Assembly (NCBI GenBank): GCA_903952205.1
Contig: CAJBEZ010000104.1
Coordinates: forward strand, 1 to 64,000
Origin: an uncultured Desulfomonile sp.
GTDB taxonomy: Bacteria > Desulfobacterota > Desulfomonilia > Desulfomonilales > Desulfomonilaceae
Direction: 5' to 3'
Length of the DNA: 64,000 nt
The notes under the pieces were generated by a model. The model was not told where the DNA came from. It ran no database searches and saw nothing but the letters and a program-made list of their open reading frames with translations. The position numbers were made by a program, and so were the translations under genes. Below are positions 35,332-56,480 of this stretch, piece after piece (the stretch's first letter is position 1; every line of letters starts with the position of its first letter).

Positions 35332-36477
35332 ATGACGGGGAAGATGGCCAAAAAAACTTATATAGCTATCTCAGTTATATTTTTCAATGTATTTGTCCTG
35401 ATCTTATTAATCAACCTCGTTTTTTCCGGACTAATAGATCTTCGGGAATATGTTAGAAAGAAGGAACTAAACCCGGAGGCTTCACACAGTTTCAAACCTG
35501 ACAATCCTGAACTCAGAAAAGTATATCCAGGGATGAGCCAACCTGAAATCTCCAGGGTGATCAGAGAGAATCTCTCAATTACCCAGGTTTATGAGCCTTA
35601 TGTCCAGTTCAAAGAGCGCCCATTTAGAGGGACGTTTATGAATGCGGACCCTAGAGGGTTTAGATCAATAGATGGACAGGAAAAATGGCCCATAGATCGA
35701 GACTGTTTCAATATTTTTGTCTTTGGTGGTTCCACTGCATTCGGGGCGGCAATAGCTGATAATGAGACAATAGCCGGCTATTTAAAGCAACTTCTGAGAG
35801 AAACCAGTGACAAGAAGGTAGCTGTGTACAACTTCGGCAGATGCAGCTACATGTCTACACAGGAAAGGGTACTGCTGGAACAGCTTATAATGAGTGGGAA
35901 TATCCCCAATCTGGCCATTTTTATAGATGGATTGAATGATTTTGCTCATCATAATGGAGTGCCTGCTTTTACTAAAGATTTGACCAAGTTTATGAACGAG
36001 GGTGAAAAACCGGCCTACAAAAAATTAATTGAAGCGTTACCAGTCACAAAATTCTTTTTAGGGTCCAGCGCATCCAAATCAGAAAAACAGGAAGCGGATT
36101 CTTCAAAGATAGTTTCAGATGCAATATCAAGGTACAAAACAAATAAAAAACTGATTGAAGCCATTTCCAGGGAGTTCAATATCAAGACCTTGTTCGTGTG
36201 GCAACCGACATCCTCGTACAAGTATGACCAAAATTACAACATATTTAAAAAATTCGATTACGGGGGGTTTCTTCCATACCTTAAACCTGGATATGAGTCG
36301 ATGGCGAAGGAATGTGCGGCCGGGACGTTTGGGGACAATTTTTTATGGCTCGGAGCCATGCAGGAGAGCCTTAAAGAGCCTTTGTATGTCGACGCCATTC
36401 ACTACAGCGCCAGGATGAGTAAATTGATTGCCGAATATATCGCTGTTGATCTTTCTGCGAAAAAAATAATTCAGTAA
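35332..36477 (+). CDS. Membrane-anchored SGNH/GDSL-type protein (paralogue A1)
   Basis: A 381-residue protein with one N-terminal membrane helix (ISVIFFNVFVLILLINLVF) and a large extracytoplasmic domain. It has SGNH-hydrolase blocks: the Ser in FVFGGSTAFGAA, an Asn block in IFIDGLNDFAH and the Asp-His pair in YVDAIHYSARM. Such proteins act as esterases or transfer acyl groups on glycans and peptidoglycan; the substrate here is unknown. It shares long stretches with the protein at 42806-43981, for example GDNFLWL and KTLFVWQP, so the two are paralogues. It follows hisH by 17 bases but belongs in content to the surface cluster. An in-frame ATG at 35344 is an alternative start. Confidence 0.75.
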   Translation: MTGKMAKKTYIAISVIFFNVFVLILLINLVFSGLIDLREYVRKKELNPEASHSFKPDNPELRKVYPGMSQPEISRVIRENLSITQVYEPYVQFKERPFRGTFMNADPRGFRSIDGQEKWPIDRDCFNIFVFGGSTAFGAAIADNETIAGYLKQLLRETSDKKVAVYNFGRCSYMSTQERVLLEQLIMSGNIPNLAIFIDGLNDFAHHNGVPAFTKDLTKFMNEGEKPAYKKLIEALPVTKFFLGSSASKSEKQEADSSKIVSDAISRYKTNKKLIEAISREFNIKTLFVWQPTSSYKYDQNYNIFKKFDYGGFLPYLKPGYESMAKECAAGTFGDNFLWLGAMQESLKEPLYVDAIHYSARMSKLIAEYIAVDLSAKKIIQ

Positions 36478-36515
36478 CAAAATATCTGGAATTCATAACA
36501 TGTCTTCCTGGATGT

Positions 36516-37940
36516 TTGGTTGTCCGAGAAGTTGAGGATACTCAGTTGCAACTTGACTTGCTGTTAGTAGTTCCTCCCGGAAAGTCACATTACGTAGTGC
36601 CGCCCATTGGACTTGGCTATCTTGCCACGGCCTTGCGCAAGGCTGGATGTGATCGCGTGGGGATTCTTGATTCGATAAAGGAGAATCTGGATGTTCCAAG
36701 ATTAACTGATCGAATCAAGTCACTTGCGCCCAGGATTGTGGGTTTTCAAGTATTCTCAACTGATTTCTCTTCGGTTAGGGCATGTTCTGCAATTATCAAG
36801 AAAATTCTTCCCGATTCATTAATCATTGTTGGTGGCCCTCATGTTTCAGCCAGGGGCGCCGACAGTCTAAGAGATTTTCCCAATGCGGACTATGGTTTCC
36901 AGGGAGAGTCAGAAATTGGCTTGCCATTATTTGCTCGACGGATTCTCGAAGGGGAGGACATACCTTTTGAAGAAATCCCGGGTCTGATTTATCATGATGG
37001 GGTCGGATTAAAAGCCACAGACCGTGTCCTTGTGGAGGATCTGGACTCCCTGGGGTTTCCCGCCTGGGATCTTATGCCTCCTTCATCCTATCCTGACGCT
37101 CCTCAGGGCGCATTCTACAAAAATTTCCCCATTGCCCCCATAGCCACGTCGAGAGGCTGTCCTTACACCTGCGCATTCTGCGGTTCGCCCGTCAACATGG
37201 GTAACAGGCTACGTTTTCGTAGCCTTGGAAGCGTGCTTGCTGAGATGGAATTTCTCTATGAACAATATGGCGTTCGGGAGTTTCATTTTATCGACGACAT
37301 GTTCAACGCTTCCAAAACAAGGGTAGTCGAATTCTGCCGGAAATTGGGAGGCAAGGATTGGGCGATTAGTTACACTTTCCCCAATGGCCTTCGTCTCAAT
37401 ACTCTCGATGAAGAATCTCTCTCCTGGCTGAAAAGGACAGGCGCTTATGCTTTTACAGTGGGGATTGAATCCGGTTCTCAAAGAATACTGGATTCAATGA
37501 ACAAGAAACTGACACTGGAAATGATTCGGGATAAGGTTGGTCTGATCGCTAAGGCTGGAATTGAACCAAGCGGTTTTTTCCTAATCGGTTTCCCTGGGGA
37601 AACCAAAGAAGATATGAAAAAGACACTGGCCTTCGCAAAGAGCCTGCCGCTGAAGAGGGCGCATTTTAGCAACTTTCTGCCTCTTCCCGGAACTGAAGCC
37701 ACGAGAAAACTTATAGAATCCGGTGAGATAACTGAGCCTAAGTGGGAAGAGCTGTCCTATTCCCGCACTCCGTATTCTCCGGTGGGAATCACTAAGGATG
37801 AGCTTAAAGCCTTCCAGCGCAGGGCTTTTCTGGAATTTCATTTACGGCCGAAAATATTACTTAAAATGCTGGGTGAAATTAAAAGTCTTAATCATCTTAA
37901 AACGATAGTTATTAGAGCAAAAGATTATTTGTTCTCCTAA
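36516..37940 (+). CDS. Radical SAM protein with B12-binding-type N-terminal domain
   Basis: A 474-residue enzyme with a cobalamin-binding-like N-terminal domain (about 10-140, PPIGLGYLATALRKAG and IIVGGPHVSARG) and a radical SAM domain with the cluster motif SRGCPYTCAFCGSP (CxxxCxxC). The His motif DxHxxG that binds cobalamin is not seen at its usual place (GILDSIKENL), so B12 may not be ligated by His. Family members carry out methylation or other radical chemistry on lipids, sugars and natural products. The start is a TTG with no strong support. It follows the SGNH protein by about 40 bases and precedes a methyltransferase. Confidence 0.85.
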   Translation: MVVREVEDTQLQLDLLLVVPPGKSHYVVPPIGLGYLATALRKAGCDRVGILDSIKENLDVPRLTDRIKSLAPRIVGFQVFSTDFSSVRACSAIIKKILPDSLIIVGGPHVSARGADSLRDFPNADYGFQGESEIGLPLFARRILEGEDIPFEEIPGLIYHDGVGLKATDRVLVEDLDSLGFPAWDLMPPSSYPDAPQGAFYKNFPIAPIATSRGCPYTCAFCGSPVNMGNRLRFRSLGSVLAEMEFLYEQYGVREFHFIDDMFNASKTRVVEFCRKLGGKDWAISYTFPNGLRLNTLDEESLSWLKRTGAYAFTVGIESGSQRILDSMNKKLTLEMIRDKVGLIAKAGIEPSGFFLIGFPGETKEDMKKTLAFAKSLPLKRAHFSNFLPLPGTEATRKLIESGEITEPKWEELSYSRTPYSPVGITKDELKAFQRRAFLEFHLRPKILLKMLGEIKSLNHLKTIVIRAKDYLFS

Positions 37941-37953
37941 AGGAGATTCTTTG

Positions 37954-38679
37954 ATGCAGAACAAGCGAGCTGAGAAAGATTTTTTCGACAACTTTGTTCA
38001 GCAAAAGGAATACGATGTTTTTGATGAAAAAGGTTACCAGCGAATTCTTTCCGAGTTTAACAGTCTGGTTATGGGTGGGGATGACAAAATCCTGCTCGAT
38101 GTTGGGTGCGGAACGGGAGCTTTCACCAAACGTTTGCAGAGTGGAAATCACTTAACCTTGGGAGTGGATATATCCTTCAAGAGCGCATCTCAGGCGAGTA
38201 AAATTGTGGATGGTTGCTATTTTTTCTCAGGGGACGCCGATAAACTGCCATTAAATGATGAGTCTGTCGATATAGTTGTTTTTAGCGGAGTCCTTCATCA
38301 CTTACCTTCCATGGACAATGCCCTTGCGGAATGTATGAGAATTATGAAGCCTGGTGGAGATTTCTTTGCGTATGATCCCAATGGAGTGAATCCAGCCATG
38401 TGGGTTTATCGCAGCGCTAAATCTCCACTTTCTACTCGGAAGGGATGGACTTTAAATGAGAGACTTCTTTGCAAACAGGAAATAAGTGAAGCTTTGAAAA
38501 AAGCAGGGTTTTCAAATGTAATTTGCAAGGGAATTAGCGGTGTAACTTATAAATACGTCGGGACAAAAACTGGAATGAAAATTTTAGGAATTTACAATTT
38601 GTTTGATCTTTGCTTAGGCCATTTAGGCATTGCTAACAGTCTTGGTTCATTTCTAGTGTCATACGGCAGAAAGGCTTAA
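37954..38679 (+). CDS. Class I SAM-dependent methyltransferase
   Basis: A 241-residue methyltransferase with motif I ILLDVGCGTGAFTKRL and the acidic end of strand 2 (LGVDISF), plus the VLHHLPSMDNALAECMRIMKPGG pattern after motif II. I use the ATG at 37954, which has AAGGAG upstream, rather than the TTG three bases before it. The target is unknown. It lies 13 bases after the radical SAM gene and 21 bases before the flavoprotein gene, so they are likely co-transcribed and act in one pathway. Confidence 0.88.
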   Translation: MQNKRAEKDFFDNFVQQKEYDVFDEKGYQRILSEFNSLVMGGDDKILLDVGCGTGAFTKRLQSGNHLTLGVDISFKSASQASKIVDGCYFFSGDADKLPLNDESVDIVVFSGVLHHLPSMDNALAECMRIMKPGGDFFAYDPNGVNPAMWVYRSAKSPLSTRKGWTLNERLLCKQEISEALKKAGFSNVICKGISGVTYKYVGTKTGMKILGIYNLFDLCLGHLGIANSLGSFLVSYGRKA

Positions 38680-38700: not shown

Positions 38701-40035
38701 ATGAAAAATGAAGTGGCCAAAAGGGTGATTATCATAGGCGCCGGCATCACTGGGCTTACAGCGGCGGTGCGCCTTGTTTCCCAAGGTTGTGGCGTAACGG
38801 TGGTGGACTCTTCATCGAGCGTAGGCGGACTAGCTGGTTCGGTAATGGTGGATGGAATACCTGTCGATAGATACTATCATTTTATATGCAGGGAAGATAA
38901 TGATCTGGTCAATTTTGTCGATGAACTGGGTCTGGAAGACAAACTGACATGGAGAGAAGCTGGGACAAGTTGTTTTGTAAACGGTAAGACTTATCCCTTT
39001 AACACGCCTCAGGATCTTCTCAAATTTGATCCCGCTCCATTCCTACAAAGAATCAGATTTGGGATGCACGTTGCCATATCTCAATTTCGAAAGAACTGGC
39101 TAAGTCTCGACAGGATAGCGGCGAAACCGTGGCTGATCGGAAAAATTGGTCGGAAAGCTTATGACGCCATCTGGGACCCATTGCTAAGAATAAAATTTGG
39201 CGAATTCCATGACCAGATCTCCGCCGCCTGGATTTGGCATAGAATCCACAGAGTTTCCAGATCACGTGCCGGCTTTTTTGGTATGAACAGTTATGGGTTT
39301 CTGGAAAAGGGTTGTCACACTTTGATGGAGTCAATGCTGGGAAAATTGCATCAGTTCGAGAACTTTTCCCTGGTTCTTGATTCCAAAGTATCAAGAATTA
39401 GGATCGAGAACAATAACGTGAAGGGAATTGAAATCGCTGATAAAGATCTGATGGAGGCTGATTGTGTAATTTCCACCTGTTCAATTCCTCAATTCCTGAA
39501 GCTTGCCTACCCCTTGGGCCAGTATAGCGCCAGCCTGGCGTCAATAGATTATCTCAATGTGATTTGTGTTCTTCTTGAGATTGATCGACCATTTTCAAAC
39601 AATTTCTGGCTAAACGTCAATGATCCGAGAATTCCATTCAACGGAATAGTGGAAACTACGAACTTAAACCCTCGGCTGGATTTGAAAGGAGGGCGTCTGG
39701 TATACATACCTTATTACTTGAGTCGAAATAATCCGAGATGGTCAATGAGCGATTCACAACTTATGGACGAGAGCTTTTCAGCGCTAAAATTGATCAGACC
39801 AGATTTTTCAGAGAGTTGGGTAATGAAAAAGTATGTGTTTCGTGATCTAAATGCCCAGGCTGTTTGTAAAGTAGGTTTTTCAAAGAAAATCCCGGATATG
39901 CGGACGCCAGTCAATGGTCTTTTCATAACGGATTCGGCCCAATATTATCCTGAAGACAGAACCATGAGCGCATCGGTGAGGCTCGGGATGAGGGTTGCCG
40001 GCCTCGCCGGGCAAGAAGTGGGGCTTGAAAGTTAA
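38701..40035 (+). CDS. FAD-dependent amine-oxidase/mutase-like protein
   Basis: A 444-residue flavoprotein. The dinucleotide-binding start is VIIIGAGITGLTAAVRLVSQG, followed by VVDSSSSVGGLAGS and the ending PVNGLFITDSAQYYPEDRTMSASVRLG. This resembles the protoporphyrinogen oxidase and UDP-galactopyranose mutase group. Proteins of this type are frequent in surface-glycan clusters, where they may isomerise or reduce a nucleotide sugar or lipid. The exact reaction is not clear from sequence. It is co-directional with the methyltransferases on either side. Confidence 0.85.
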   Translation: MKNEVAKRVIIIGAGITGLTAAVRLVSQGCGVTVVDSSSSVGGLAGSVMVDGIPVDRYYHFICREDNDLVNFVDELGLEDKLTWREAGTSCFVNGKTYPFNTPQDLLKFDPAPFLQRIRFGMHVAISQFRKNWLSLDRIAAKPWLIGKIGRKAYDAIWDPLLRIKFGEFHDQISAAWIWHRIHRVSRSRAGFFGMNSYGFLEKGCHTLMESMLGKLHQFENFSLVLDSKVSRIRIENNNVKGIEIADKDLMEADCVISTCSIPQFLKLAYPLGQYSASLASIDYLNVICVLLEIDRPFSNNFWLNVNDPRIPFNGIVETTNLNPRLDLKGGRLVYIPYYLSRNNPRWSMSDSQLMDESFSALKLIRPDFSESWVMKKYVFRDLNAQAVCKVGFSKKIPDMRTPVNGLFITDSAQYYPEDRTMSASVRLGMRVAGLAGQEVGLES

Positions 40036-40130: not shown

Positions 40131-41111
40131 GTGAACGTACAAGTGGGAGCAGAATCAATAAAAAGCGAGTACGTGCCCTGTGATCTATGTGGAGCTGTTG
40201 ATCACGAAGTCCTATATTCGAAGATCGATTCAGTTACAAACTGGACCTTCAATGTTGTCGGCTGTTCATGCGGCATGGTTTTTGTTAATCCTATGCCTGA
40301 TGAACAGTCTATACCCCTGCTTTATCGCCAAGATTATCATTTCGAGAAGCCTCTACTGGATTCGCTGTACAAAAAGATGATTGAATTTCTGCCTCCGTCC
40401 AACGAAAATTCCAGGTTGCTCGACGTTGGATGCGGAACCGGCGACTTCATAAAGCACGCGGAACAAGTTGGATGGGATGCAGAGGGAGTCGATTTGATAA
40501 ACTGGAGTCAAACTTATGGAGGACTCAAAATTCGGATTGGAGACCTCCCTTGCATGGACATTCCGGAAGAGTCGTATGATGTTGTAACCGCTTGGGCGGT
40601 ATTGGAACATGTGAGAAACCCTTCTCTATTCTTCAACAAAATCTCAACCTTGATGAAAAAAGATGGCTATTTCATATTCACTGTTCCCAATGTCGCCGCC
40701 CCAGGGATTAGACATTCATGTCATGAAGATGTGCCCAGACATTTGTGGCTATTTACGCCAGGGACTGTTGAATCCTACCTTGATAAGAACGGGATGAAAA
40801 TTCGATCCATATTCCATGATGGTAAAATCTACCGGTCCTATCCTTTTGGGTTGCTGAGGTACACCTGGCATCAGTTGATCGGCAGGAAAGAAATGAATTG
40901 CTCAGTGTATGAAAACAGGTCAGTAGGGCTTCTCCAGAACAGATCTATAGGCGTCCATTTCAAAAGGTGGATAACCGAGGTTTTTGAAAATGTCCCAACA
41001 TGTCAAATCGCATTGGATTTTCTGGATCTAGCGTTGGGCGTAATTATAGCCAATTACTCAAAAATAATAAGAAATTACGGTGTTATTACGGTCATAGCGA
41101 CCAAGGAATAG
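40131..41111 (+). CDS. Class I SAM-dependent methyltransferase with N-terminal Cys motif
   Basis: A 326-residue methyltransferase. The N-terminus has CDLCGAVDH and CSCGMVFVNPMP, a four-Cys set that likely binds zinc, then motif I RLLDVGCGTGDFIKHA and the acidic VDLI. The middle part has AWAVLEHVRNPSLFFNKI. This subtype is common in sugar methyltransferases of polysaccharide clusters. Start is GTG at 40131, 95 bases after the flavoprotein gene. The substrate is unknown but the context points to a glycan or lipid. Confidence 0.88.
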   Translation: MNVQVGAESIKSEYVPCDLCGAVDHEVLYSKIDSVTNWTFNVVGCSCGMVFVNPMPDEQSIPLLYRQDYHFEKPLLDSLYKKMIEFLPPSNENSRLLDVGCGTGDFIKHAEQVGWDAEGVDLINWSQTYGGLKIRIGDLPCMDIPEESYDVVTAWAVLEHVRNPSLFFNKISTLMKKDGYFIFTVPNVAAPGIRHSCHEDVPRHLWLFTPGTVESYLDKNGMKIRSIFHDGKIYRSYPFGLLRYTWHQLIGRKEMNCSVYENRSVGLLQNRSIGVHFKRWITEVFENVPTCQIALDFLDLALGVIIANYSKIIRNYGVITVIATKE

Positions 41112-41287: not shown

Positions 41288-42721
41288 TTGCCACGTGTAA
41301 TCCAATTCGTTCGTGTCTTTTGGACGCTCATCGGCTTTACTTTCCCTGTGGTCGTTTCGAGTATAGGCTTTCTTGTTCTCTACAATAATCTGGATTCGGG
41401 ACTTCTCATCCTACTCTTGTTGATGGGCTTCAACATCTGCCTTTTGATAATCGCCGGCAAATTAGCGACCAACGCAACCCTTTTGAATTCTTTTAAATTA
41501 GGGGTTATTTGTGTAATTGCAATTTCATCCACGTTTGTTCTGCTTGAAGAGGCTTTTCCGTTAATACTACCTACTGATTATGCACAGGCTAGCCGCTTCG
41601 TGAAACTACCCCAACAGGACCAGAACTACCGGGACTTCAAGCCGGATATGATCTTTGATCAATCCGAAAAGATTTCTACGGAATCAACAGAGGCCCCTAG
41701 TTTTTTTTCGGACGACATCACTTGGCACAAGCCTGGGCGTGCCTACGTGTATTTTGGATATGACCCTAATCAAAACTTCCGATACCTTAATCGGGTGAAA
41801 TGGAATGAAACCGGATACTTCGACCACGACTACAGCGTCATCAAACCCGCAGATGTTTACAGAGTTATTGTGATAGGTGATTCTTATGTAGAATCTATAC
41901 AGGTTCCTCTTAAATCGACATTCCACAAACTTACGGAAGACGCCGCCAACATGTCCGGTTTCACACTTAACAACAAGCGTTATGAGATAATTGCGCTCGG
42001 CAATTCCGGATTCGGCCAGAGAGAAAATCTGGATGTTCTGAGAACCCAGGGGCTCAAGTATGATCCGGATCTTGTAATTGTGACGCTTTCTGGGAATGAC
42101 TTTTGCGATGACGACCCCGTACTCAAGAGAGAATCCATACTCAGTGGAGGAAGCGTCACTCCACTGGTTAGAGGTGTGGCCAATCACGGATATTTTGCAC
42201 TGGCATTTATCATCAAGAGGATTGACGATGTGCAAAGAAACCGTATCAAGATATCTCCAGAATTACTTCAGTGGTCAGGAGAAGACGTCCCGATTATCGA
42301 GAACGCCTGGCGTCGTTCCCTTGATCATTTAAGGGCTCAAAGAGACATTTGTCAGGATAGAGGCGTCACATTCCTCGTACTATATATAGGTTGCGAGATT
42401 GAAGTTATGAATCAAATAGATCCAAGAGAGGCGATAGCTTCTTTGAAAGCCATGGGTGGTCCTCACAAAACGATGGACTGGGATATATCCAAATCAATCA
42501 GGAGAGTTCGGGACTATTGTCAGGAGTTTAATATAAACTTTGCCTGCATGTTGGGGCCATTGTCAAGTAGTCAAAAAGATACGGGTAATAAGGTCTTTGC
42601 AGATCATTATTCATTTTTTGGTCATGAAGTTGTCGCAAAAGCTCTAACTTGCTTTCTCGGGGAGTTTACTGTGCTGGGCGAGACGCTGAAGGATGCTATA
42701 GACACCTGTTTTCAACAATAA
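41288..42721 (+). CDS. Membrane-anchored SGNH/GDSL-type protein (type B)
   Basis: A 477-residue protein with about three N-terminal membrane helices (residues 5-95) and a periplasmic SGNH domain. Catalytic blocks are VIGDSYVESIQV (Ser), IVTLSGNDFCDD (Gly, Asn) and a C-terminal DHYSFFGHEVVAKAL (Asp, His). It is not close in sequence to the A-type paralogues. Start is a TTG at 41288 with a distant GAAAGG, so the N-terminus is uncertain. It is one of five SGNH proteins in this region and may be an acyltransferase or esterase acting on an exported glycan. Confidence 0.75.
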   Translation: MPRVIQFVRVFWTLIGFTFPVVVSSIGFLVLYNNLDSGLLILLLLMGFNICLLIIAGKLATNATLLNSFKLGVICVIAISSTFVLLEEAFPLILPTDYAQASRFVKLPQQDQNYRDFKPDMIFDQSEKISTESTEAPSFFSDDITWHKPGRAYVYFGYDPNQNFRYLNRVKWNETGYFDHDYSVIKPADVYRVIVIGDSYVESIQVPLKSTFHKLTEDAANMSGFTLNNKRYEIIALGNSGFGQRENLDVLRTQGLKYDPDLVIVTLSGNDFCDDDPVLKRESILSGGSVTPLVRGVANHGYFALAFIIKRIDDVQRNRIKISPELLQWSGEDVPIIENAWRRSLDHLRAQRDICQDRGVTFLVLYIGCEIEVMNQIDPREAIASLKAMGGPHKTMDWDISKSIRRVRDYCQEFNINFACMLGPLSSSQKDTGNKVFADHYSFFGHEVVAKALTCFLGEFTVLGETLKDAIDTCFQQ

Positions 42722-42805
42722 TTGATCGAGTGGGGTTAAACCTTTACATTGTAATCTGGATCACAATACACTTTGAATTCCACCATACTGAAAGGTATTT
42801 CACGG

Positions 42806-43981
42806 ATGAAGTTTGGCAGCTTTTTTGGAAGAATATCCAGTTTTTATAAAAATTTAGCCTTAATTGTTCTTAATACGATCATTGTATTGCTAGTTATGAA
42901 TTGGTTAGCTTCCGGAATAATTGATTACCAAAATTATTTGCGAAAGAAAGCTGATAGTGGGAAGTCTCGCTACAGTTTCAAGAAATACGAAGAACCACTC
43001 AAAGAAATGTTTCCAAACTTAGCCAAGAGGGACATTGAAGAACTTTTGGATGACACACGGCATATCTCTCAGAGCTTTGAACCGTACACTCAATTCAAAG
43101 AAAAGCCATTTGCTGGAAAATCTGTCAATGTCGACAGTCAAGGGTTCAGACCGATCAAAGACCAGGGACCATGGCCACCCAATCCTGATTTTATAAATAT
43201 TTTTGTGTTTGGTGGATCTACAACTTTTGGTTATGGCGTGCCTGATGGAGACACCATACCGTCCTATCTGCAGGAATTGTTAAGTTCAAAATATCCAGGA
43301 AGAATTAAAGTATATAATTTCGGTCGAGGCGGGTACATTTCGGTACAGGAAAGAATACTTCTAGAAAAAATGATACTGAGAGATATTGTCCCTGACATAG
43401 CGGTATTCATAGATGGCTTGAATGATTTGGCCCACGAGGATGATCGACCAGCTCACACCAAAGAGCTGACCAAATTCATGGATGAAGGAGAAAAATCACC
43501 TCTCACAAAATGTATTGCGCAGATGCCCATATTCAAACTGATAACTGGTTCCCACACCAAAACAGAGCATGTCCAAGACGATGATTCCAAACGCAGTATA
43601 ACCGACCTCTTGCGCCGATACAAAATTAACATGGAAATGATCCAGTCAACTTCGAGTCATTTCAAAATCAAAACACTTTTCGTTTGGCAACCTGTTCCTG
43701 TTTACAAATGTGGTCATGAATACAATTTCTTCTCCAATTTTGATTATGATGGCTATGTGCCAAGTCTCAAAGTTGGATACCAGGAAATGGTTAAAGTTTT
43801 TCCCAGCGGTGAATTCGGCGATAACTTTCTGTGGCTTGCAGATGTCCAAGAAGGGCTGAATAAATCTCTTTATGTTGATGCGATTCACTACACCCCATAT
43901 CTTTGTCGATTAATAGCTCAGAGAATTGCCGATAAGCTTGAAGAACAAAAAATGATCAAAGATGTTTCCGTCAATAGGTGA
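42806..43981 (+). CDS. Membrane-anchored SGNH/GDSL-type protein (paralogue A2)
   Basis: A 391-residue paralogue of the protein at 35332-36477, alike along the whole length. One N-terminal membrane helix (LALIVLNTIIVLLVMNWLA) is followed by the SGNH blocks FVFGGSTTFGYG, IDGLNDLAHED and YVDAIHYTPYL. The ATG at 42806 has AAAGG upstream; an in-frame TTG at 42773 would add eleven residues. It ends 40 bases before the oppositely directed SGNH gene. The two A-type copies bracket the radical SAM, methyltransferase and flavoprotein genes. Confidence 0.75.
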   Translation: MKFGSFFGRISSFYKNLALIVLNTIIVLLVMNWLASGIIDYQNYLRKKADSGKSRYSFKKYEEPLKEMFPNLAKRDIEELLDDTRHISQSFEPYTQFKEKPFAGKSVNVDSQGFRPIKDQGPWPPNPDFINIFVFGGSTTFGYGVPDGDTIPSYLQELLSSKYPGRIKVYNFGRGGYISVQERILLEKMILRDIVPDIAVFIDGLNDLAHEDDRPAHTKELTKFMDEGEKSPLTKCIAQMPIFKLITGSHTKTEHVQDDDSKRSITDLLRRYKINMEMIQSTSSHFKIKTLFVWQPVPVYKCGHEYNFFSNFDYDGYVPSLKVGYQEMVKVFPSGEFGDNFLWLADVQEGLNKSLYVDAIHYTPYLCRLIAQRIADKLEEQKMIKDVSVNR

Positions 43982-48928: not shown

Positions 48929-51301
48929 ATGAAGGAAAAAAACATGTTCCCTTTCAAAACTGTGCTAAGCTTGAGGCCTCTAATTGATTTCTGGAACAGG
49001 ACAGTTAACTCACCTGAAGCCTCTTGGGGATTATCTCAGGAAGAATTAGTCTCCAAACTGGATGAGGCTATAGAACTTCTAGATCCTATAACTGATTTTT
49101 CAGCTCTGGAAAGGCATCAAGGACTTATAAAGACCTTAATGTCGGCGGTATTTCCGAGAGCTTCCTGGGAAACTCAGCTTGCCGGCGCGTTCCTACCGTT
49201 CCAACTAAGACCTTTTTTCGTGTCACCTCTTTTGAGAAAAAAGATTGTAGGTAGTGACGGGTCTCTCAAGGGCAACCCCTTTCCTGATCAGGAAACCTAC
49301 AACGAAAAACTACTATTGCGTGCCTATTTGATCATCCTGAAAAAGTTCTATGAGATCGACAGCGACCTCGGATCAGCGTTGACCATTATCATCCCGGACA
49401 ACGACACAGGCTTGGACAAGTACTTCAACCTTTTGATTCAGGACAAGTTCGTAATATCCAATAGTCTCTCCGATCCCCCTGAGTTGACCGAGTCCGACAG
49501 GCGGGAAATTCAGGATAACCTTTCGGATATAAATGTTTTGAGCCGCATCATCCCAATTGAAAAATTTGAATTTCAGGGATTCTCAGTCGTTTATGCGGAA
49601 GACGTTACCTCTGAGGCCGTAATATCCAATTTGGAGAAAGAAGCTGTAGAATGTTACTCCTTAAAAAATACAACCGGACTAGCTCTCCTGAAAACGCAGC
49701 TAAGAACCTTATTGGGAGTGCCTGATTTGAAGGTTGGGGTCATGGCCATTGATGGGGATCAGGGTTTCATTTTCAAAGACGCGGGTTTAGGAAACAGGGA
49801 AAATATGTTTCTGTCTCCTATACGTTTTCATCTTTCGGCGTTTGATGGAACGCATTTCCAAACTGTTCTTAAAGACGGTGAAACAATAGTTGTTTCTGAT
49901 CTGTCAATCGACCCGTTAAAACTGCAACCGGATATTGATTTGCTGGAAAAAGACGCAAAATCGTTACTTGTCACTCCTCTAAAATATGGCCAAAAATCTA
50001 TAGGGCTTCTTTGCCTTACTTCAGGGCATCCGATGGAGTTCCAATTTCAACATTCAGGGTTGATAAATAAGATTGTCCCAATTCTCTCTCTAGTCTTAAA
50101 AAATGAAATTGATGAGCGCAATGCAGTGATTGATAGATCTATCCTGGAAAATTGCAGCGCTGTGCACAGGTCAATTCTGTGGCGTTTTCGACAGGTGGCT
50201 ATGGACAGCCTGGAAAATTCCCGGAAAGGTTTCTTTGAGGAATTCGGTCCAGTTATTTTCAAGGATGTTCATGCTCTATATGCGACAGCCGATATTAGGG
50301 GGGCGTCAATCGGTAGGAATAGAAGTATTCAGACAGATCTTGCCAAACAGCTAAATCTTGCTCTGGAAATAGTCTCCGCCGCTGTTTCCAAGAAGGCGTT
50401 TCCAATTCTCGATGAGGCGAGTCATCAGATTCGAGGGCGTCTTAGAAAAATATCCGAAGGTGTAACAACCGGTGATGAACAACCAATCATAGATCTTATT
50501 CAAGCTGAAATTGAACCACTTTTCCCGTTTTTGAGAACTCTCGGGCCGGAATTGGCCAAGGCGATCGACGAATATGAGAATTCACTTGATCCAAAGACCC
50601 GCACAGTTTTCCATGAGAGGCGAGATCTTGAAGAAAGTATAGCCCTTCTAAGTACCACTCTGTCTAATTATCTGGAAAAGGAACAGGGGCACGCTCAGTC
50701 CATTTTCCCCCACTTCTTTGACAAACGTAAGACGGACGGGGTGGACTACGTGATGTATCTTGGAGAATCAATGGTCGAAAAACTCAAGTTCAATGAAGTC
50801 TATGTTAAGAATCTTAGGCTCTGGCAGTTGATCGTTTGCTGCGGGATGGCATGGCATAATTCAGCGATTCGCCCGAGGCTAAAGACGCCACTTGAAGTGA
50901 GTCACGTGGTGTTGGTGAGTCATAGTCCAATTTGCATACGGTTTCGATTTGATCAGAAGAGATTTGATGTCGAAAGCTCCCCATACATTGGTCATGAAAT
51001 AATCAGGTCCCTTGTTGGCGGAGCAACGACAAAAATCGATAATGACAAACTCTCCCAACCTGACAAAATAGCGATCGTGTACTCTCGGCCGGAAGAAGCT
51101 ACTGAAATGAAAAGACATATTTCTTATCTTCAGGACAACCATTACCTGATGGATGATCTTGAATACGTAGAGTTGAATGAACTCGAGGGTATTCAACAAG
51201 GGTTGAGAGCCCTCCGTGTTAGCGTCAATGTTCATTCTGATCAACTTTCAAAAAGGATTTCTGAGATGGATCGCCAGGGTGCTCAGATAGTTTCCGATTA
51301 A
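48929..51301 (+). CDS. Large GAF-like-domain protein of unknown function
   Basis: A 790-residue soluble protein I cannot assign to a known function. The ATG at 48929 has GGAGG upstream; the frame is open back to 48866. A GAF-like segment lies at about residues 260-390 (VGVMAIDGDQGFIFKDAG, then SLLVTPLKYGQKSIGLLCL). A central part (DVHALYATADIRGAS) precedes helical stretches and a C-terminal region with LRLWQLIVCCGMAWHN. No kinase, cyclase or phosphodiesterase motif was found. It is divergent from the glycosyltransferase pair and precedes an LptF-type gene by 41 bases, so it may be co-transcribed with it. Confidence 0.7.
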   Translation: MKEKNMFPFKTVLSLRPLIDFWNRTVNSPEASWGLSQEELVSKLDEAIELLDPITDFSALERHQGLIKTLMSAVFPRASWETQLAGAFLPFQLRPFFVSPLLRKKIVGSDGSLKGNPFPDQETYNEKLLLRAYLIILKKFYEIDSDLGSALTIIIPDNDTGLDKYFNLLIQDKFVISNSLSDPPELTESDRREIQDNLSDINVLSRIIPIEKFEFQGFSVVYAEDVTSEAVISNLEKEAVECYSLKNTTGLALLKTQLRTLLGVPDLKVGVMAIDGDQGFIFKDAGLGNRENMFLSPIRFHLSAFDGTHFQTVLKDGETIVVSDLSIDPLKLQPDIDLLEKDAKSLLVTPLKYGQKSIGLLCLTSGHPMEFQFQHSGLINKIVPILSLVLKNEIDERNAVIDRSILENCSAVHRSILWRFRQVAMDSLENSRKGFFEEFGPVIFKDVHALYATADIRGASIGRNRSIQTDLAKQLNLALEIVSAAVSKKAFPILDEASHQIRGRLRKISEGVTTGDEQPIIDLIQAEIEPLFPFLRTLGPELAKAIDEYENSLDPKTRTVFHERRDLEESIALLSTTLSNYLEKEQGHAQSIFPHFFDKRKTDGVDYVMYLGESMVEKLKFNEVYVKNLRLWQLIVCCGMAWHNSAIRPRLKTPLEVSHVVLVSHSPICIRFRFDQKRFDVESSPYIGHEIIRSLVGGATTKIDNDKLSQPDKIAIVYSRPEEATEMKRHISYLQDNHYLMDDLEYVELNELEGIQQGLRALRVSVNVHSDQLSKRISEMDRQGAQIVSD

Positions 51302-51342: not shown

Positions 51343-52533
51343 TTGAAACTCATAGATAAATATGTATTCCGTGAAATAAGTGTTTCGTTCCTTTTCTGTT
51401 TTGCTATTTTTCTGGTTACCGGGGTTATAGCAGGCTTTCTTCCGATTCTGCAAAAGGGAATGGAGTCTGGACTGGAGTTGACGATCATATTGTTTCAGGC
51501 TTTGGCAAACGCTCTCCCCGGCACTCTTGTCACAGTCGCCCCTCTGTCTATAGCAGTCGGAATATTGCTTGGCCTGGGTAGGATGGCTTCCGACAATGAA
51601 ATTTCCGCTATCAAGTCCAGCGGAATTTCTATAACTCGACTGCTTCCTCCTGTTTTGACCCTTGGTTTCCTTGGTTTTTGCCTTAGCCTTATGTGCACTT
51701 TGGTTCTTATACCAAAGGGCATCTCAGAGGGCAAAAGGCTTATGTATGAGGCTTTAACGAAACGGATAGATGCGGGGATCGAGGAGCGGGTCTTTTTTGA
51801 TTCTTTGAAGAACATGATTATGTATGTCGAGCAGATTGATTCTTCTTCAGGCCTTATGAGCAGGATATTTATCAGGGAATCATCGAAGCCGGATGATGTG
51901 ACAACAATCCTGGCCAAGAAAGGAAAGGTGGCTACTGACCCTGAAGGTAAGTCATTTATAATGGATTTAAGAGATGGAGTTGTTCTGAAGGAAGACTCTC
52001 GCGGGGATTCCACAGGCAATCTTGCTTTTGAGAGCTATGTTTTCAAGTATCCATTGGCTCAGATTAACCTTGAAAAGGAACAGAAATCTCTTGAGGAATT
52101 GTCAATATCAGAAATTCGAGAGAGGATCCAAACAATAACCAGGGAAACCGGCGACGGCACGGATCAATCAAGGGCTTTTAAGCGAAGGGCGGACATATTC
52201 GCTCGTATACTGATTCTTCAAAGGTTCGTTTACCCTTTTTCCTGTATAGCGCTAGCTTTCATCTCTTTTCCCATTGGTCTTGTAAACTTTGGCAAAGGCA
52301 GACTCAATAATGTCTCGCTGGGACTTGTGGCGATTTTTGGGTATTATGCGTTGACACTGGCCGCTGAGAGAGCCGCTCGCTCCTATTTGATCATTCCGGA
52401 AATTGCAGTCCCCGCTCCCGCACTGTTTTTTATTGTTTTCAGCGTATACTTGATAGACAGGGTTCGCAGGGAAAGGTTGTCAACAGTAGCCGCCATATTT
52501 GATAAAGTCCTGGCAAAATGTCGCAGAAGATGA
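51343..52533 (+). CDS. LptF/LptG-family lipopolysaccharide export permease
   Basis: A 396-residue inner-membrane subunit of the YjgP/YjgQ family, which with LptB extracts LPS from the inner membrane. It starts with the family pattern LIDKYVFREISVSFLFCFA, has helices near 15-35, 55-80 and 100-125, a periplasmic beta-jellyroll (about 130-270) and three C-terminal helices (FARILILQRFVYPFSCIAL). Start is TTG at 51343. The usual partner gene (lptG) is not adjacent, so this is a lone copy. It may export LPS or the cluster's own glycolipid. Confidence 0.85.
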   Translation: MKLIDKYVFREISVSFLFCFAIFLVTGVIAGFLPILQKGMESGLELTIILFQALANALPGTLVTVAPLSIAVGILLGLGRMASDNEISAIKSSGISITRLLPPVLTLGFLGFCLSLMCTLVLIPKGISEGKRLMYEALTKRIDAGIEERVFFDSLKNMIMYVEQIDSSSGLMSRIFIRESSKPDDVTTILAKKGKVATDPEGKSFIMDLRDGVVLKEDSRGDSTGNLAFESYVFKYPLAQINLEKEQKSLEELSISEIRERIQTITRETGDGTDQSRAFKRRADIFARILILQRFVYPFSCIALAFISFPIGLVNFGKGRLNNVSLGLVAIFGYYALTLAAERAARSYLIIPEIAVPAPALFFIVFSVYLIDRVRRERLSTVAAIFDKVLAKCRRR

Positions 52534-52619: not shown

Positions 52620-53393
52620 CTAATTTTTGAAAGACTTTAATACCGCCGCCATAAAGAAAGTCAGAACTCCTGACGAGATGGCGATTGCTGCAGGCGGGTA
52701 TTCCGCAAAATACCAAGAATAAATTACTAGACAGAACAATGACATCACGATTTGAACAGAAACCAGAGCCTGAAAAAATCGATTCTCAAAAGGCGGCGTT
52801 TCCGGGACATAACACTCTATTTTGGGCCATACCCAAACCACCAGGAGTTCATAAACCAGCAACGACAATATGATTCCCCACAGGACATCGTTTGGGAAGT
52901 GAGCGCCGACAAAAATCCTGGATAATCCTACAAGACTACCAAAAAACAGTAAAATAAACTTGAACATTCGAGAAGGACTAAAATGGGCTAGCGCAAGGGA
53001 TGTGGCGAAAGCGGCGGCGCTGTGACCTGACGGAAATGATCCAGACCGCAATACAGGTCCCAGGAAATGAATCGTCCCTAAGGCTTCTGTTGGCCTCAAT
53101 ACCGGGATTATTACTTTAATGAGGTTAACTGCAATGGACGCGCCAATTAACATAGCTAGCCCAAAGGCGGTGATCCTTGGATTGACAAGGATAAACATAC
53201 CCAAAATGATACCCAATAGTAAGCCATCCCCAAGGGTCGTCATGGATATCCAGAATAGATCTGAAAGATTGGAATGTAAGGAGTTTAACCGCAGGAATAT
53301 TTCTGCGTTGAAGGCGTTAACAAAAAAGGACGTGACTATAAGCCCAAGTAGTAGCAGCAAATTAACTGAAACAGGAAGATTGTGTTTTGCCAT
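52620..53393 (-). CDS. PAP2-family membrane phosphatase
   Basis: A 257-residue integral membrane phosphatase. The three PAP2 motifs are present: KVIIPVLRP (K-x6-RP), PSGHSAAAFA (PSGH) and SRIFVGAHFPNDVLWG (SR-x5-H-x3-D). About six helices surround them. Family members hydrolyse undecaprenyl pyrophosphate or phosphatidyl phosphates on the periplasmic side, and some dephosphorylate lipid A. In this setting recycling of a polyprenyl carrier is a reasonable guess. It lies just downstream of a GT-C gene on the same strand. Confidence 0.9.
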   Translation of the reverse strand: MAKHNLPVSVNLLLLLGLIVTSFFVNAFNAEIFLRLNSLHSNLSDLFWISMTTLGDGLLLGIILGMFILVNPRITAFGLAMLIGASIAVNLIKVIIPVLRPTEALGTIHFLGPVLRSGSFPSGHSAAAFATSLALAHFSPSRMFKFILLFFGSLVGLSRIFVGAHFPNDVLWGIILSLLVYELLVVWVWPKIECYVPETPPFENRFFQALVSVQIVMSLFCLVIYSWYFAEYPPAAIAISSGVLTFFMAAVLKSFKN

Positions 53394-53427
53394 AAGACCT
53401 GTTGCCGGTTACTTTTTTAAACGCGAA

Positions 53428-55164
53428 TCAATATGACTTGTCAGTGGTCAATCCTGAGCCATGTGGGGAAGTTTGATTATCATTTTTCAATACGTAAACT
53501 GCGCCATCCTTTGGAAATACTCTTTGAAAGGGGAAAATTTTCTCGACCGTGTAACCGGGGAGGGGACCTAAAGTCAAAAGGAAATCTTCTCTATCGACCC
53601 ACCACCAACTAAGTCCTGGTTTTTGTACATAACCTTTGTTGTAGCAATTGTAGCCATTAAATTCGAATCCTCCATCCAGTGAACAGGGTGGCACGGCTAG
53701 ATCATTGACGACATAGTCCTGAGCCTGTTTCAGCGCCAATTTTGTCCTGACTAAATCATGAACTCCGCCAACAGAGAAAAGCCCCATAATAATCATAACG
53801 ATAAAAGCGGGAATAAGTGATTTTTTCCAAAAAACAAGATTAAGGGATTTGGCCTTTTCGCTTACAATCCAAATGATAATAAAAACGAAAACAGGGATAA
53901 GATACCGGTCATGATAACCCGTAAACAAAATTGTCCCGGAATAAATCATCGTAAGAGCGAGAGAGAATGTAGACGCCGTAATGGGCGTGTCAATATCACA
54001 TTTTCTGGCTGGAAATAGAATGTTAGAGATCGAGGAATAAGCCATGATGGCTATGGCGAACGCACTCATTGCGGCAAGGTAAGCCAGGCAGTAATACAGT
54101 GTAGGGGGGATTTGCCATACCCGTGGTATGTTCATCAGGTAAGTGTCCTTCAAAAGTAGCGGACCAATACCAAAGTCAATTATGATGTTGCGAAAGAATA
54201 CTACAGACGGGTGAAACATTCCTGTCAGTATACCGGTTTGCAGCAATATGAAAAAGACAGTTAAGACTTTGAAGTAAGTTCGAAAAACTTTCCTTGAGTA
54301 CAGCTCCTTCAGACTTAAGGCAACGACCGGAGAAACAAGAACACTTACATAACCAATGCCAAAGGCCAACCTCTCAGAGAGCAATCTCAGGTATCCATAA
54401 ACGCCCAGCGCCAATGGATCGCTAATCATTCTATGAATGACTTCATGGTCGGTTAACGATGTGCTCCCGAATTTTTTCAGGGCAATTTCGAATCCGACCC
54501 ACGGTATGATCGCAATCAAAACCGTCATCATGAAGATCTGAAATTTCCCCATTTGTCTGGCTTTTGGGTGAATGAACGTAAACAAGATCAGAGTGACAGG
54601 TATGGCGATGGCAATCTGTCGTGTCAGTAAAGCCGCCAAGGCGACTACAAGTCCGACGGCGACTAGAATTCTACTCTGTCGTTCTATCCCTTCAGTAATG
54701 AACAGCGCAGAAAATATCATTATGCCGACTAGAGTCACGTCGGTCATAAACGTAAAGGATTGCGACAGAAACAGAGGATTGGCGATTAAAGTCAGCGCAC
54801 CCCAAAATGCAAGACTACTGGAAGCGCCGGTCCTCTTCAAGAAGACCATCAACGCAACAGAACCTAATACCGCCATGACGAGCACGGACACACGGAGCAC
54901 TGTCACAGAAAAGCCAAAAATTTTTGTGAAAGCGAAACCCCAGATTAAATGTGTGAGTAAAGACGGGCCACCATCTCCCCAACCGGTCGCCGGCACGCAT
55001 CCATCGCAGGTGACTATTTGGAGGGCTTTGATAAATGACCAATCGTCATTAATCATAAACTCGCCGGAGGGACCGATGAACCAGATGATAAAGCCCCACA
55101 CCAGAACCAGAAACAAAGCTGGAGAGACATAAGAATAAAAGGTTTTTTCAGTTCCTAATGACAT
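53428..55164 (-). CDS. Polytopic GT-C-type glycosyltransferase-like protein (third copy)
   Basis: A 578-residue membrane protein with about ten helices. The first loop carries MINDDWSFIKALQ, with an acidic pair at the spot where PMT/ArnT-like enzymes have their catalytic Asp. It is related in layout to the tandem pair at 45-49 kb but is not a close copy. The C-terminal periplasmic part is rich in Cys, Gly and aromatic residues (PPCSLDGGFEFNGYNCYNKG). It probably uses a lipid-linked sugar donor. The PAP2 gene follows after 34 bases. Confidence 0.75.
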   Translation of the reverse strand: MSLGTEKTFYSYVSPALFLVLVWGFIIWFIGPSGEFMINDDWSFIKALQIVTCDGCVPATGWGDGGPSLLTHLIWGFAFTKIFGFSVTVLRVSVLVMAVLGSVALMVFLKRTGASSSLAFWGALTLIANPLFLSQSFTFMTDVTLVGIMIFSALFITEGIERQSRILVAVGLVVALAALLTRQIAIAIPVTLILFTFIHPKARQMGKFQIFMMTVLIAIIPWVGFEIALKKFGSTSLTDHEVIHRMISDPLALGVYGYLRLLSERLAFGIGYVSVLVSPVVALSLKELYSRKVFRTYFKVLTVFFILLQTGILTGMFHPSVVFFRNIIIDFGIGPLLLKDTYLMNIPRVWQIPPTLYYCLAYLAAMSAFAIAIMAYSSISNILFPARKCDIDTPITASTFSLALTMIYSGTILFTGYHDRYLIPVFVFIIIWIVSEKAKSLNLVFWKKSLIPAFIVMIIMGLFSVGGVHDLVRTKLALKQAQDYVVNDLAVPPCSLDGGFEFNGYNCYNKGYVQKPGLSWWWVDREDFLLTLGPLPGYTVEKIFPFQRVFPKDGAVYVLKNDNQTSPHGSGLTTDKSY

Positions 55165-55355
55165 AATTTGAGTGTTTGGACATCACTGTCCCCATTGCTC
55201 CCCGTTTTTAACCCACCCCTTTATATTCGGCTCTTTGAGTGGGATTCTTTTCAAAGAAACATCGGCGATTATACAGCGAGGGGGCAATCATGTAAAGAGT
55301 TGATAACTCACTTGAACTAACAATCTAACGTGCCTGGCTCCGTTTATTCCTTTAA

Positions 55356-56480
55356 TTAGAAAGAGGTTTCCGACAGGACGCTTTCTGCAATTATCTCATG
55401 CGCATGAATATTAGGATGCCTGTCAATAATAACTGATGGATTTTTTCCCCAATGATAATAGGCTTTCGCATATTCCTCCATTGAACTGGTTTTAAGTCGA
55501 TCTATCAAGACTGCCTGGGAATCAACCATTTTACTTTTCAGTTTCTTGAAAGATTCAGGCACGATGGTTAAAGTGTTGTCCATCCCCAGGACTACGATAA
55601 CCATATTGGAGCCGTGTCGGGAACATATAGATTCAATCTCTAGATATGCCGACCGGACTATCTTTTCAGTATCCTGTTCAGGTGTTGGCACGAGCGCCAG
55701 GGATTCTTTCAACCGGACAAGACTTGAGTGCAAAAGGTCATGCGCAATCGATGGAAACTTTCGGCTTAGGCTGAAATTCAAGAAGTCGCCAAATGTGTGA
55801 TGAGAATGGCGGAAAACTTCAAAGTCCAGATCGAAAATAGCGCTCATAAAATCGGGCCTGTGAATTTTGATACTGCCTTCTGGGCCGGAAACGAAGTATG
55901 GATGGGGAAGTAGCCCAAAAAAACTTGGAGCGTAACGAAGCCTGGATCGATCAACAAGCCATGGCGAATACTGTACTAGAACAGTTTTTGGCTTAAATGC
56001 CGGAATAATCTGTCTTGCCAGAGTCACCATCTCTGCAAGACCGTAACTGCATCGCCCGGCGTTCAATGGGCTCACTCCCATTTTTTTGGCCAATTGACTG
56101 CAATATGTATGTTCGGATGGAACGCCAAAACCGAAAGTGAAACTGCAACCTAGCGCTAGAAGACTGTCCACATGACTTCTGGGGGAGCCTAATTGGCCAG
56201 GCGAGCCTACAGAGGCAATACGAAATCCATTGCAGTCGTAATAAACTGGAATTTTGACATCCTTGGAGAGGATCGTCATTCCATTTGAACAAGGAATGGG
56301 AACATATCCGAGCGCGGCGTCAAGTTTGTGCACCGAGCCAATCCACCCCGTAGAACAGGTCTTTATGCTTATCCAGTGCAAGTATGAAAAATAGAAAGAA
56401 ACGACTAAAATGAGTGAAATGACAATCACGATTCCGGAAATCGCGCGCCTTAAAATAATCCATGATAGCCTATCGCTCAT
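55356..56480 (-). CDS. Membrane-anchored SGNH/GDSL-like protein (type D)
   Basis: A 374-residue protein with one N-terminal membrane helix (GIVIVISLILVVSFYF) and a periplasmic domain. The first block is LLALGCSFTFGFGVPSEH, where the Ser is placed as in SGNH enzymes. The C-terminal DRHPNIHAHEIIAESVL matches the D-x-HPN-x-x-G type seen in AlgX/AlgJ-like and related acyltransferases. The Asn block is weak (LVQYSPWLVDRS). Start ATG has GGGGGGAAG upstream. It is the fifth SGNH-type protein of the region and lies just downstream of gyrA on the same strand. Confidence 0.7.
   Translation of the reverse strand: MSDRLSWIILRRAISGIVIVISLILVVSFYFSYLHWISIKTCSTGWIGSVHKLDAALGYVPIPCSNGMTILSKDVKIPVYYDCNGFRIASVGSPGQLGSPRSHVDSLLALGCSFTFGFGVPSEHTYCSQLAKKMGVSPLNAGRCSYGLAEMVTLARQIIPAFKPKTVLVQYSPWLVDRSRLRYAPSFFGLLPHPYFVSGPEGSIKIHRPDFMSAIFDLDFEVFRHSHHTFGDFLNFSLSRKFPSIAHDLLHSSLVRLKESLALVPTPEQDTEKIVRSAYLEIESICSRHGSNMVIVVLGMDNTLTIVPESFKKLKSKMVDSQAVLIDRLKTSSMEEYAKAYYHWGKNPSVIIDRHPNIHAHEIIAESVLSETSF

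Follow-up and report, generated by a model that had tools for sequence, protein, structure and literature searches.

The window analyzed here is the initial 64 kb of a 116-kb contig from an uncultured Desulfomonile sp., the draft genome of which (G000, the host genome) totals 4.78 Mb and is 99.99% complete. Positions 35332 to 56480, flanked by the housekeeping genes murA-hisB-hisH on one side and gyrA on the other, encode five SGNH-like proteins, three GT-C glycosyltransferases, a B12 radical SAM enzyme, two methyltransferases, a PAP2 phosphatase, and LptF. This inventory was drawn up in an earlier reading of the DNA (the original prediction), and we confirmed it, finding a long open frame for every named gene; open frames were called with a simple script, and start codons are uncurated. 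The gene run probably decorates envelope lipids or sugars at the outer face of the inner membrane. The locus has the look of a patchwork, made up of two or three small modules, and not of a single new pathway. Its genes are as follows.

35332..36477, plus strand: SGNH1, membrane anchored, of the CgnD-like type (through 45% identity to SGNH3), starting 17 bp past hisH
36516..37940, plus strand: B12-binding radical SAM enzyme (rSAM), below all NCBIfam cutoffs shown
37951..38679, plus strand: MT1, class I methyltransferase; this slot is empty of MT1 in all five readable relatives
38701..40035, plus strand: FAD enzyme, PRK07233/NF005560 family (438.9 bits; cutoff, 252)
40131..41111, plus strand: MT2, Methyltransf_23, with a Cys-rich N-terminal region; adjoins LptF in three relatives (G003, G004, and G006)
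41288..42721, plus strand: SGNH2, located elsewhere in relatives
42773..43981, plus strand: SGNH3, paralogue of SGNH1, CgnD-like fold (structure model)
44021..45289, minus strand: SGNH4, with a Lipase_GDSL_2 match
45384..47105, minus strand: GTC1, glycosyltransferase of the ArnT/PMT fold (structure model)
47125..48957, minus strand: GTC2, paralogue of GTC1 (34% identity); adjoins LptF and PAP2 in G012 too
48866..51301, plus strand: GAF-domain protein of 811 amino acids (aa), conserved in the genus
51343..52533, plus strand: LptF (Pfam LptF_LptG)
52620..53393, minus strand: PAP2 phosphatase, LpxE being nearest among solved structures (motifs and PDB match)
53428..55164, minus strand: GTC3, PMT_2-type glycosyltransferase, over the PMT_2 cutoff
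55356..56480, minus strand: SGNH5, DxHPN type, without the block-III Asn; weak NCBIfam GDSL match

On the plus strand, the order is murA-hisB-hisH-SGNH1-rSAM-MT1-FAD-MT2-SGNH2-SGNH3; the minus-strand genes SGNH4-GTC1-GTC2 come next, then plus-strand GAF-LptF and minus-strand PAP2-GTC3-SGNH5-gyrA. Intergenic gaps measure 10 to 38 bp from hisH through FAD, 19 bp for GTC1-GTC2, 41 bp for GAF-LptF, 34 bp for PAP2-GTC3, and 26 bp for SGNH5-gyrA. The prediction that Wzx, Wzy, GT2, and GT4 are absent was borne out by profile scans within the stretch but does not extend to the genome: host contig C37 (L189) carries a classical exopolysaccharide locus with Wzz, Wzy_C, a sugar transferase, GT4, GT2, GtrA, PMT_2, and a further SGNH protein.

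Proteins encoded at the locus

As predicted, the SGNH proteins are of at least four sequence types: SGNH1 and SGNH3 are paralogues, and SGNH2, SGNH4, and SGNH5 are each separate. A Pfam scan matched Lipase_GDSL_2 to SGNH1 (E value of 2.7e-4), SGNH2 (1.9e-4), SGNH3 (6.7e-9), and SGNH4 (2.1e-5), only SGNH3 exceeding the curated cutoff; SGNH5 matched no Pfam family at an E value of 0.1, and its NCBIfam GDSL match stood at 0.0029. Hydropathy predicts one helix each in SGNH1, SGNH3, SGNH4, and SGNH5 and four in SGNH2. Numbering residues by the first row of each alignment, we found that SGNH1/3 keep Ser149, Gly184, Asn217, Asp369, and His372 (17 rows); in a wider set of 43 rows, Ser149, Asp369, and His372 were invariant and Gly184 fell below 90%. 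SGNH1 and SGNH3 carry the defining residues of the SGNH superfamily (blocks I, II, III, and V), and the SGNH fold is seen in the SGNH3 model. SGNH2 keeps Ser199, Asn270, and a side-by-side Asp439-His440; SGNH4 keeps Ser134, Asn197, and His395, with no Asp at the usual DxxH position; and SGNH5 keeps Ser112 and Asp352-x-His354 (4 rows).

The original prediction had called for structural comparison of the SGNH proteins with AlgJ/AlgX, PatB, and OafA; for SGNH3, a PDB search with the structure model pointed to CgnD. The SGNH3 model (mean pLDDT of 91.7, built from 43 sequences) had CgnD as its top PDB match by both Foldseek (5.9e-14) and VIA-align (Z of 26.6, root mean square deviation of 4.3, 272 aligned; the next entry had a Z of 15.9). 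In a sequence search of the PDB with the SGNH1/3 family, CgnD (E value of 2e-5) was the best match having a stretch that passes alone; four designed PPR proteins had better E values but no such stretch and were treated as noise. No AlgX, AlgJ, or PatB entry occurs in the 50 matches listed for the SGNH3 model, although this absence alone does not count against them. No PDB sequence match was obtained with the SGNH2 and SGNH5 families, and those of SGNH4 were weak (a designed scaffold at an E value of 0.026, a GDSL protein at 0.27). In a scan of GTDB genomes, the closest SGNH3 relatives carried the metagenome-assembled genome names Desulfomonile, Syntrophaceae, and "Deltaproteobacteria bacterium."

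Acylation had also been proposed. An excerpt of PMC9487903 describes AlgJ, AlgX, and PatB1 as circularly permuted, with the order H-S-G-N. In all five SGNH proteins here, Ser precedes His, so that none is circularly permuted. A profile search found no MBOAT match in the host genome, and 5 of the 18 family genomes have one; no AT3 domain fused to SGNH occurs among the locus proteins scanned, with their one to four predicted helices (the rest of the genome was not searched for AT3). Since a 99.99%-complete genome has no MBOAT, AlgI-type acyl transfer is unsupported, and acylation by an AlgI/AlgJ-type system is contradicted both by this absence and by the unpermuted, CgnD-like SGNH type. Catalytic order and the lack of MBOAT likewise led us to reject an AlgJ/AlgX/PatB1 identity for the SGNH proteins, despite a weak, subthreshold ALGX match of SGNH4 (E value of 0.008; 16.3 of 26.5 bits). 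That match and an MBOAT gene inside the locus of G002 speak in favor of acylation. In G002 (L037:9688-12073), the MBOAT gene and a gene for a 321-aa protein without a Pfam match lie between LptF and PAP2.

Among the glycosyltransferases, GTC3 scored 34.3 bits against a PMT_2 cutoff of 26.1. Pfam scans matched nothing to GTC1 or GTC2 themselves, but in their family of 20 members, 8 hit PMT_2 at an E value of ≤0.01. The GTC1 model has the GT-C membrane fold, to which GTC2 is assigned through its identity to GTC1 and GTC3 through PMT_2. Foldseek ranked ArnT best among PDB entries (1.7e-6), then AftB and ALG9, and all 21 rows up to an E value of 0.022 were GT-C enzymes or GPI-transamidase subunit U. 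The VIA-align list also held GT-C enzymes and relatives (Z of 14 to 23); between helical proteins, such values speak for a shared fold only. Asp53, an acidic residue in the first loop of GTC1, is invariant in 20 of 20 rows and presumably has the role of the acidic first-loop residue of the GT-C class. AMP-binding Pfam matches at 0.003 or worse occur in 3 of the 20 family members; a reading as adenylating enzymes was set aside, the PDB sequence matches being at chance level (0.6 and worse) and the fold search having settled on GT-C.

The closest solved relative of PAP2 by PDB sequence search is LpxE (8.6e-15). PAP2 carries K-x6-RP, PSGH, and SR-x5-H-x3-D, the last two of which we take to be LpxE motifs. 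Passages of PMC6581854 give K-x6-RP as a motif of LpxE and state that LpxE enzymes cleave C55-PP as well. LptF scored 212.8 bits with LptF_LptG and 190.6 of the 230 bits of the TIGR04407 equivalog cutoff. The sole other LptF/LptG-family match in the host genome lies at C29:19045, and LptF is present in 17 of 18 family genomes; the gene here is the general LptF of these cells. The 811-aa protein, with GAF as its only recognized domain, is encoded divergently from GTC2 and ahead of LptF.

The nearest NCBIfam families of rSAM are the Sden_1168 P-methyltransferase (168.4 of 575 bits) and HpnJ (152.2 of 577.6 bits), both below their cutoffs. The FAD protein, originally called FAD mutase-like, is corrected to PRK07233/NF005560: this family score and 32 PDB sequence matches headed by protoporphyrinogen and amine oxidases displaced UDP-galactopyranose mutase, and its HpnE score was 70 bits (cutoff, 283.05). 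The family exceeds its cutoff in 7 of 297 sampled genomes of the phylum, the host included. We read seven FAD loci (L224 to L230) in the six other genomes; L225 to L229 are from other Desulfobacterota families. Their neighbors include GT2, LPG_synthase_TM, and GT87 (L225), LPG_synthase_TM (L227), UbiA (L228), GT2 and a B12 radical SAM enzyme (L229), BacA within three genes (L226), an adjacent DUF2298 membrane protein (L230), and a subthreshold PMT_2 match only (L224). Such neighbors point to polyprenyl-linked sugar chemistry and may mark a polyprenyl-sugar module. Of the proteins encoded at the locus, rSAM and FAD are the ones that we understand least.

Conservation within and beyond the genus

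The genus relatives (G001 to G006) are draft genomes, and absences in G003 to G005 often represent contig ends; MT1, MT2, GTC3, PAP2, GAF, and SGNH5 were compared within fetched loci. With few exceptions, the genus shares a backbone of hisH-SGNH1-rSAM-FAD-SGNH3, SGNH4-GTC1-GTC2, GAF-LptF-PAP2, and SGNH5-gyrA. The gathering of these genes is thus not chance, the backbone being largely syntenic in six other genomes of the genus; the conserved co-occurrence that the original prediction had put up for checking is present within the genus and partly outside it as well. SGNH1-rSAM and GAF-LptF are each found in six of six relatives, as is the 811-aa GAF protein itself. Where the contig reaches, hisH-SGNH1 (5/5) and FAD beside rSAM (5/5) are constant, FAD being split in G001 and represented in G004 by its first 49 residues only. 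GTC1-GTC2 is kept in five of six (exception, G001), SGNH3 in three of four observable cases, PAP2 near LptF in four of four, and SGNH5 beside PAP2 in three of four (exception, G004). Close rSAM orthologues occur in all seven genus genomes and in G012.

Other genes are not in their slots: MT1 lies between rSAM and FAD in none of five readable relatives, MT2 or SGNH2 between FAD and SGNH3 in none of three, and GTC3 between PAP2 and SGNH5 in none of three; MT2 sits between LptF and PAP2 where it adjoins LptF. The closest relative, G005, is uninformative here, its contig ending at the MT1, SGNH2, and GTC3 slots. SGNH3, SGNH4, and GTC1 are jointly missing from G001 (83% complete). This relative retains SGNH1, rSAM, FAD, and GTC2, and where the three would lie it has a different methyltransferase, with 31% identity to MT1 across 107 residues. 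Most decorating genes have diverged faster than the genes around them: identities to G002 are 64% for SGNH1, 67% for FAD, 65% for SGNH4, 56% for GTC1, 56% for GTC2, 61% for PAP2, and 51% for SGNH5, against 84% for MurA, 80% for HisH, 78% for LptF, and 89% for GyrA. rSAM (79%) is the exception.

Strong SGNH1/3 homologues (E value of <1e-60) number eight, in seven genomes of other genera. A GTC1-type gene lies within 4 kb of four of them (G007, G009, G010, and G017, from three genera), the rough expectation by chance being well under 0.1 of 8 if there are ~2 such GT-C genes per ~5 Mb. Four of the 11 genomes from other genera encode SGNH4 homologues (E value of <1e-100): in G014 near a GTC1-type gene, GT2, and a methyltransferase, in G010 and G017 next to a 624-aa protein (nine predicted helices, no Pfam match), and in G007 with no such neighbor at either copy. 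PAP2-LptF-GTC2 are together in G012, which also has hisH-SGNH1-rSAM-FAD; with hisH-SGNH1 in G011, this link extends to three genera. In G001, G003, G004, and G006, SGNH2 homologues have PfkB and HAD-like neighbors; those of G008, G009, G012, and G014 are in a like setting (Pfam check on L253 and L255), with a PMT_2 gene immediately upstream in G008, G009, and G012 (L248, L250, and L252). In G007 they lie beside a carbamoyltransferase, and in G011 and G017 they have other neighbors. Because SGNH2 is sited elsewhere in relatives, with PfkB/HAD-like or PMT_2 genes, it is a newcomer to the locus. The SGNH2-PfkB-HAD-like block (L248, L250, L252, L253, L254, L255, and L256) is conserved in different genera of the family. 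Of the four SGNH types, three recur at or near a GT-C gene: SGNH1/3, SGNH4 (G014), and SGNH2 (G008, G009, and G012). The idea of one new pathway found no support, as outside the genus the genes split into submodules that are carried on separate contigs or lie at a distance from one another.

The genome-wide search for GTC1 homologues covered 21 genomes, G013 to G017 not among them. In a tree of 20 GT-C proteins, which leaves out the partial GT-C of G001, GTC1 and GTC2 are separate clades. The LptF-linked GT-C of G012 groups with GTC2 (99/98) and the G014 copy with GTC1 (100/99); a G010 copy at 0.63 Mb, without an SGNH neighbor, falls in the GTC1 clade, and the deep positions of G007 C28 and G009 C11 are weak (64/44). 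GT2 genes lie near GT-C relatives in G007 (contig C28, of uncertain clade), G014, and G017, and a GT2-like gene, read by eye, follows the G008 copy. In G017 (L053:865-7700), hexapeptide, Gfo/Idh, DegT, and GT2 genes come after a GTC1-type gene and before SGNH3, an arrangement resembling an amino-sugar donor set of its own.

We also examined 69 loci (1.19 Mb) of more distant SGNH1/3 relatives from Melainabacteria, Omnitrophota, Verrucomicrobia, Rufibacter, and others, in which family names rest on one Pfam-scanned member each. A NodU-type carbamoyltransferase occurs in 22 of the 69 and an SxtJ-like protein in 15 (both in 13), with SGNH and carbamoyltransferase ≤2.5 kb apart in 19; four of the 22 are Rufibacter loci of the same arrangement, so that the 22 are not independent events. 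DUF5989, presumably SxtK, was beside SxtJ in three small frames scanned (L075, L076, and L089). Examples of SGNH1/3 relatives near a carbamoyltransferase and SxtJ are L065, L069, L076, L089, and L109 and, in the host, L183:7786-13895. Host contig C105 carries a carbamoyltransferase and SxtJ, away from the window, flanked by a pair of weakly SGNH-like proteins (27% identity to SGNH3, E value of 5e-6; Lipase_GDSL at 6.6e-4, below cutoff) with F5/8 type C-like ends. A joint system was named in none of the titles found on SGNH with SxtJ or carbamoyltransferase or on SxtJ, SxtK, DUF5989, and carbamoyltransferase. It is a long shot, but SGNH1/3 might belong to a broad CgnD-like family working with NodU-type carbamoyltransferase and the small membrane proteins SxtJ and DUF5989 in trans-membrane carbamoyl transfer to, or editing of, surface glycans, a counterpart of the MBOAT-plus-SGNH route for acetyl groups; some copies of the Desulfomonile group would have left it to pair with ArnT-like GT-C enzymes as a two-part decoration machine. 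The association, which offers a possible role for SxtJ-type proteins, is perhaps a more novel lead than the locus itself.

Interpretation of the locus

The reading that we tentatively prefer is a patchwork of small decoration modules between housekeeping genes, possibly serving periplasmic glycosylation of lipid A, lipopolysaccharide (LPS), or another polyprenyl-fed glycolipid. Module A would consist of GTC2, the LpxE-like phosphatase, and LptF; module B of GTC1 with the anchored SGNH3 and SGNH4; and module C of SGNH1, the B12 radical SAM enzyme, and the FAD enzyme. GTC1, GTC2, and GTC3 would draw their sugar from a polyprenyl-phosphate donor whose synthesis and flipping depend on genes outside the locus; we infer this donor from the GT-C fold and the GT2 neighbors in G007, G014, and G017. 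The sugar would be attached at the periplasmic face to a membrane glycolipid before LptF export; LptF and PAP2 make lipid A or the LPS core the most likely acceptor. As for the chemistry, PAP2 might remove a lipid A phosphate or recycle undecaprenyl pyrophosphate, the SGNH proteins might cut or rearrange ester groups on the product, and the rSAM, FAD, and methyltransferase enzymes might alter the sugar or lipid carrier in the cytoplasm. The original prediction of periplasmic decoration of a lipid-linked product survives in that the ArnT-like GT-C fold, the LpxE-like phosphatase, LptF, and the anchored SGNH proteins favor it; the single new pathway does not.

Several observations weigh against the preferred reading. 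One canonical residue is missing in each of SGNH4 and SGNH5, and structure was modeled for SGNH3 alone among the SGNH proteins; the GTC1 model is of moderate confidence (pLDDT of 78.1; 8 sequences). SGNH-GTC1 adjacency is absent at four of the eight strong copies (G011, two in G012, and G016), and from the GT-C side, three of nine copies in G007 to G012 are SGNH adjacent (the G008 copy lies on a 3.2-kb contig). Neither a GT2 donor synthase nor a flippase turned up in profile scans of the locus proteins. PAP2 could simply act as an undecaprenyl-pyrophosphate phosphatase (SepP, 6e-10; PRK11837, 8.6e-8; both below cutoff), the evidence on its substrate being the LpxE and SepP scores, which come from different libraries. 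The link of LptF to the locus may be an accident, because its neighbors differ in other genera: LptF is present in 10 genomes of other genera, and in 9 of them (G007, G009 to G011, and G013 to G017, with G014 and G015 seen at contig ends), it lacks the locus neighbors.

In a rather unlikely alternative, the genes occupy the same recombination hot spot, flanked by stable housekeeping genes, but act in surface and lipid reactions that have nothing to do with one another, and synteny in the genus reflects only common descent. In its favor, MT1, SGNH2, and GTC3 are not in their slots in readable relatives, LptF and SGNH2 have different neighbors elsewhere, and the slot between LptF and PAP2 holds MBOAT and the 321-aa protein in G002, holds MT2 in G003, G004, and G006, and is empty here. 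A mere hot spot, however, fits poorly with the recurrence of SGNH1/3-GTC1 pairs in genera g2, g4, and g5, of GTC1 near SGNH4 in g9, and of both PAP2-LptF-GTC2 and SGNH1-rSAM-FAD in g7. The single new decoration pathway with SGNH acyltransferases of the original prediction seems improbable: the encoded functions are compatible with it, and the MBOAT gene in the G002 locus and the ALGX match of SGNH4 speak for it, but the host has no MBOAT, SGNH1/3 are unpermuted and CgnD-like, and the submodules separate outside the genus. We also consider it quite improbable that rSAM and FAD modify an isoprenoid (a polyprenyl carrier or hopanoid-like lipid) and that the GT-C and SGNH proteins finish that glycolipid and not LPS. 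The likeness to HpnJ and HpnE and the neighbors of PRK07233 genes in L225 to L229 are in keeping with such a route, but the HpnJ and HpnE scores are far below cutoffs, L224 and L230 show just the PMT_2 match and the DUF2298 protein, and PAP2 and LptF point to lipid A.

Among the titles listed on Desulfomonile with lipopolysaccharide (8 of 9) and on B12-binding, radical SAM, and SGNH with glycan, none concerns the envelope of this group. The locus therefore offers specific genes to target in studies of lipid A and glycans in the Desulfomonile group, and the GTC1-SGNH pair, as a small unit that recurs, is testable on its own.

Comparison with known systems

The AlgI/AlgJ/AlgX and PatA/PatB1 systems resemble the locus in having periplasmic SGNH proteins in glycan loci, with MBOAT in the homologous region of G002, and differ in that the SGNH order here is unpermuted and the host genome lacks MBOAT. 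CgnD, the crocagin hydrolase (8a2n), is the nearest solved structure to SGNH1/3 by fold, and its cluster also encodes a carbamoyltransferase (CgnI); CgnD releases the crocagin core from its leader peptide, according to an excerpt of PMC10070186, whereas SGNH1/3 are membrane anchored and have GT-C enzymes as neighbors.

With ArnT and the PMT enzymes, GTC1 shares its fold and the invariant Asp53; GTC1 is ~11% identical to ArnT, no arn genes were recognized in the locus, and the likeness is at the level of fold only. In gtrABC serotype-conversion operons, a decorating GT-C enzyme is supplied with polyprenyl-phosphate sugar; GtrA and GtrB are missing from the locus, and the GT2 gene beside GT-C that typifies Gtr/Rgt-type operons was not found in the window locus. 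The Rgt lipid A/core galacturonosyltransferases with LpxE/LpxF are alike in that GT-C enzymes occur together with an LPS exporter gene and an enzyme resembling lipid A phosphatases; the locus differs in having no RgtE-type bactoprenyl-phosphate sugar synthase, and the likeness is drawn from gene content, not from sequence comparison with Rgt. Parts of PMC7663294 and PMC6581854 describe RgtD and RgtF as enzymes that transfer GalA to lipid A at sites from which phosphate has been removed, and we propose them, by analogy, as a model for the mechanism outlined above. We regard the locus as a modular variant of known periplasmic decoration systems.

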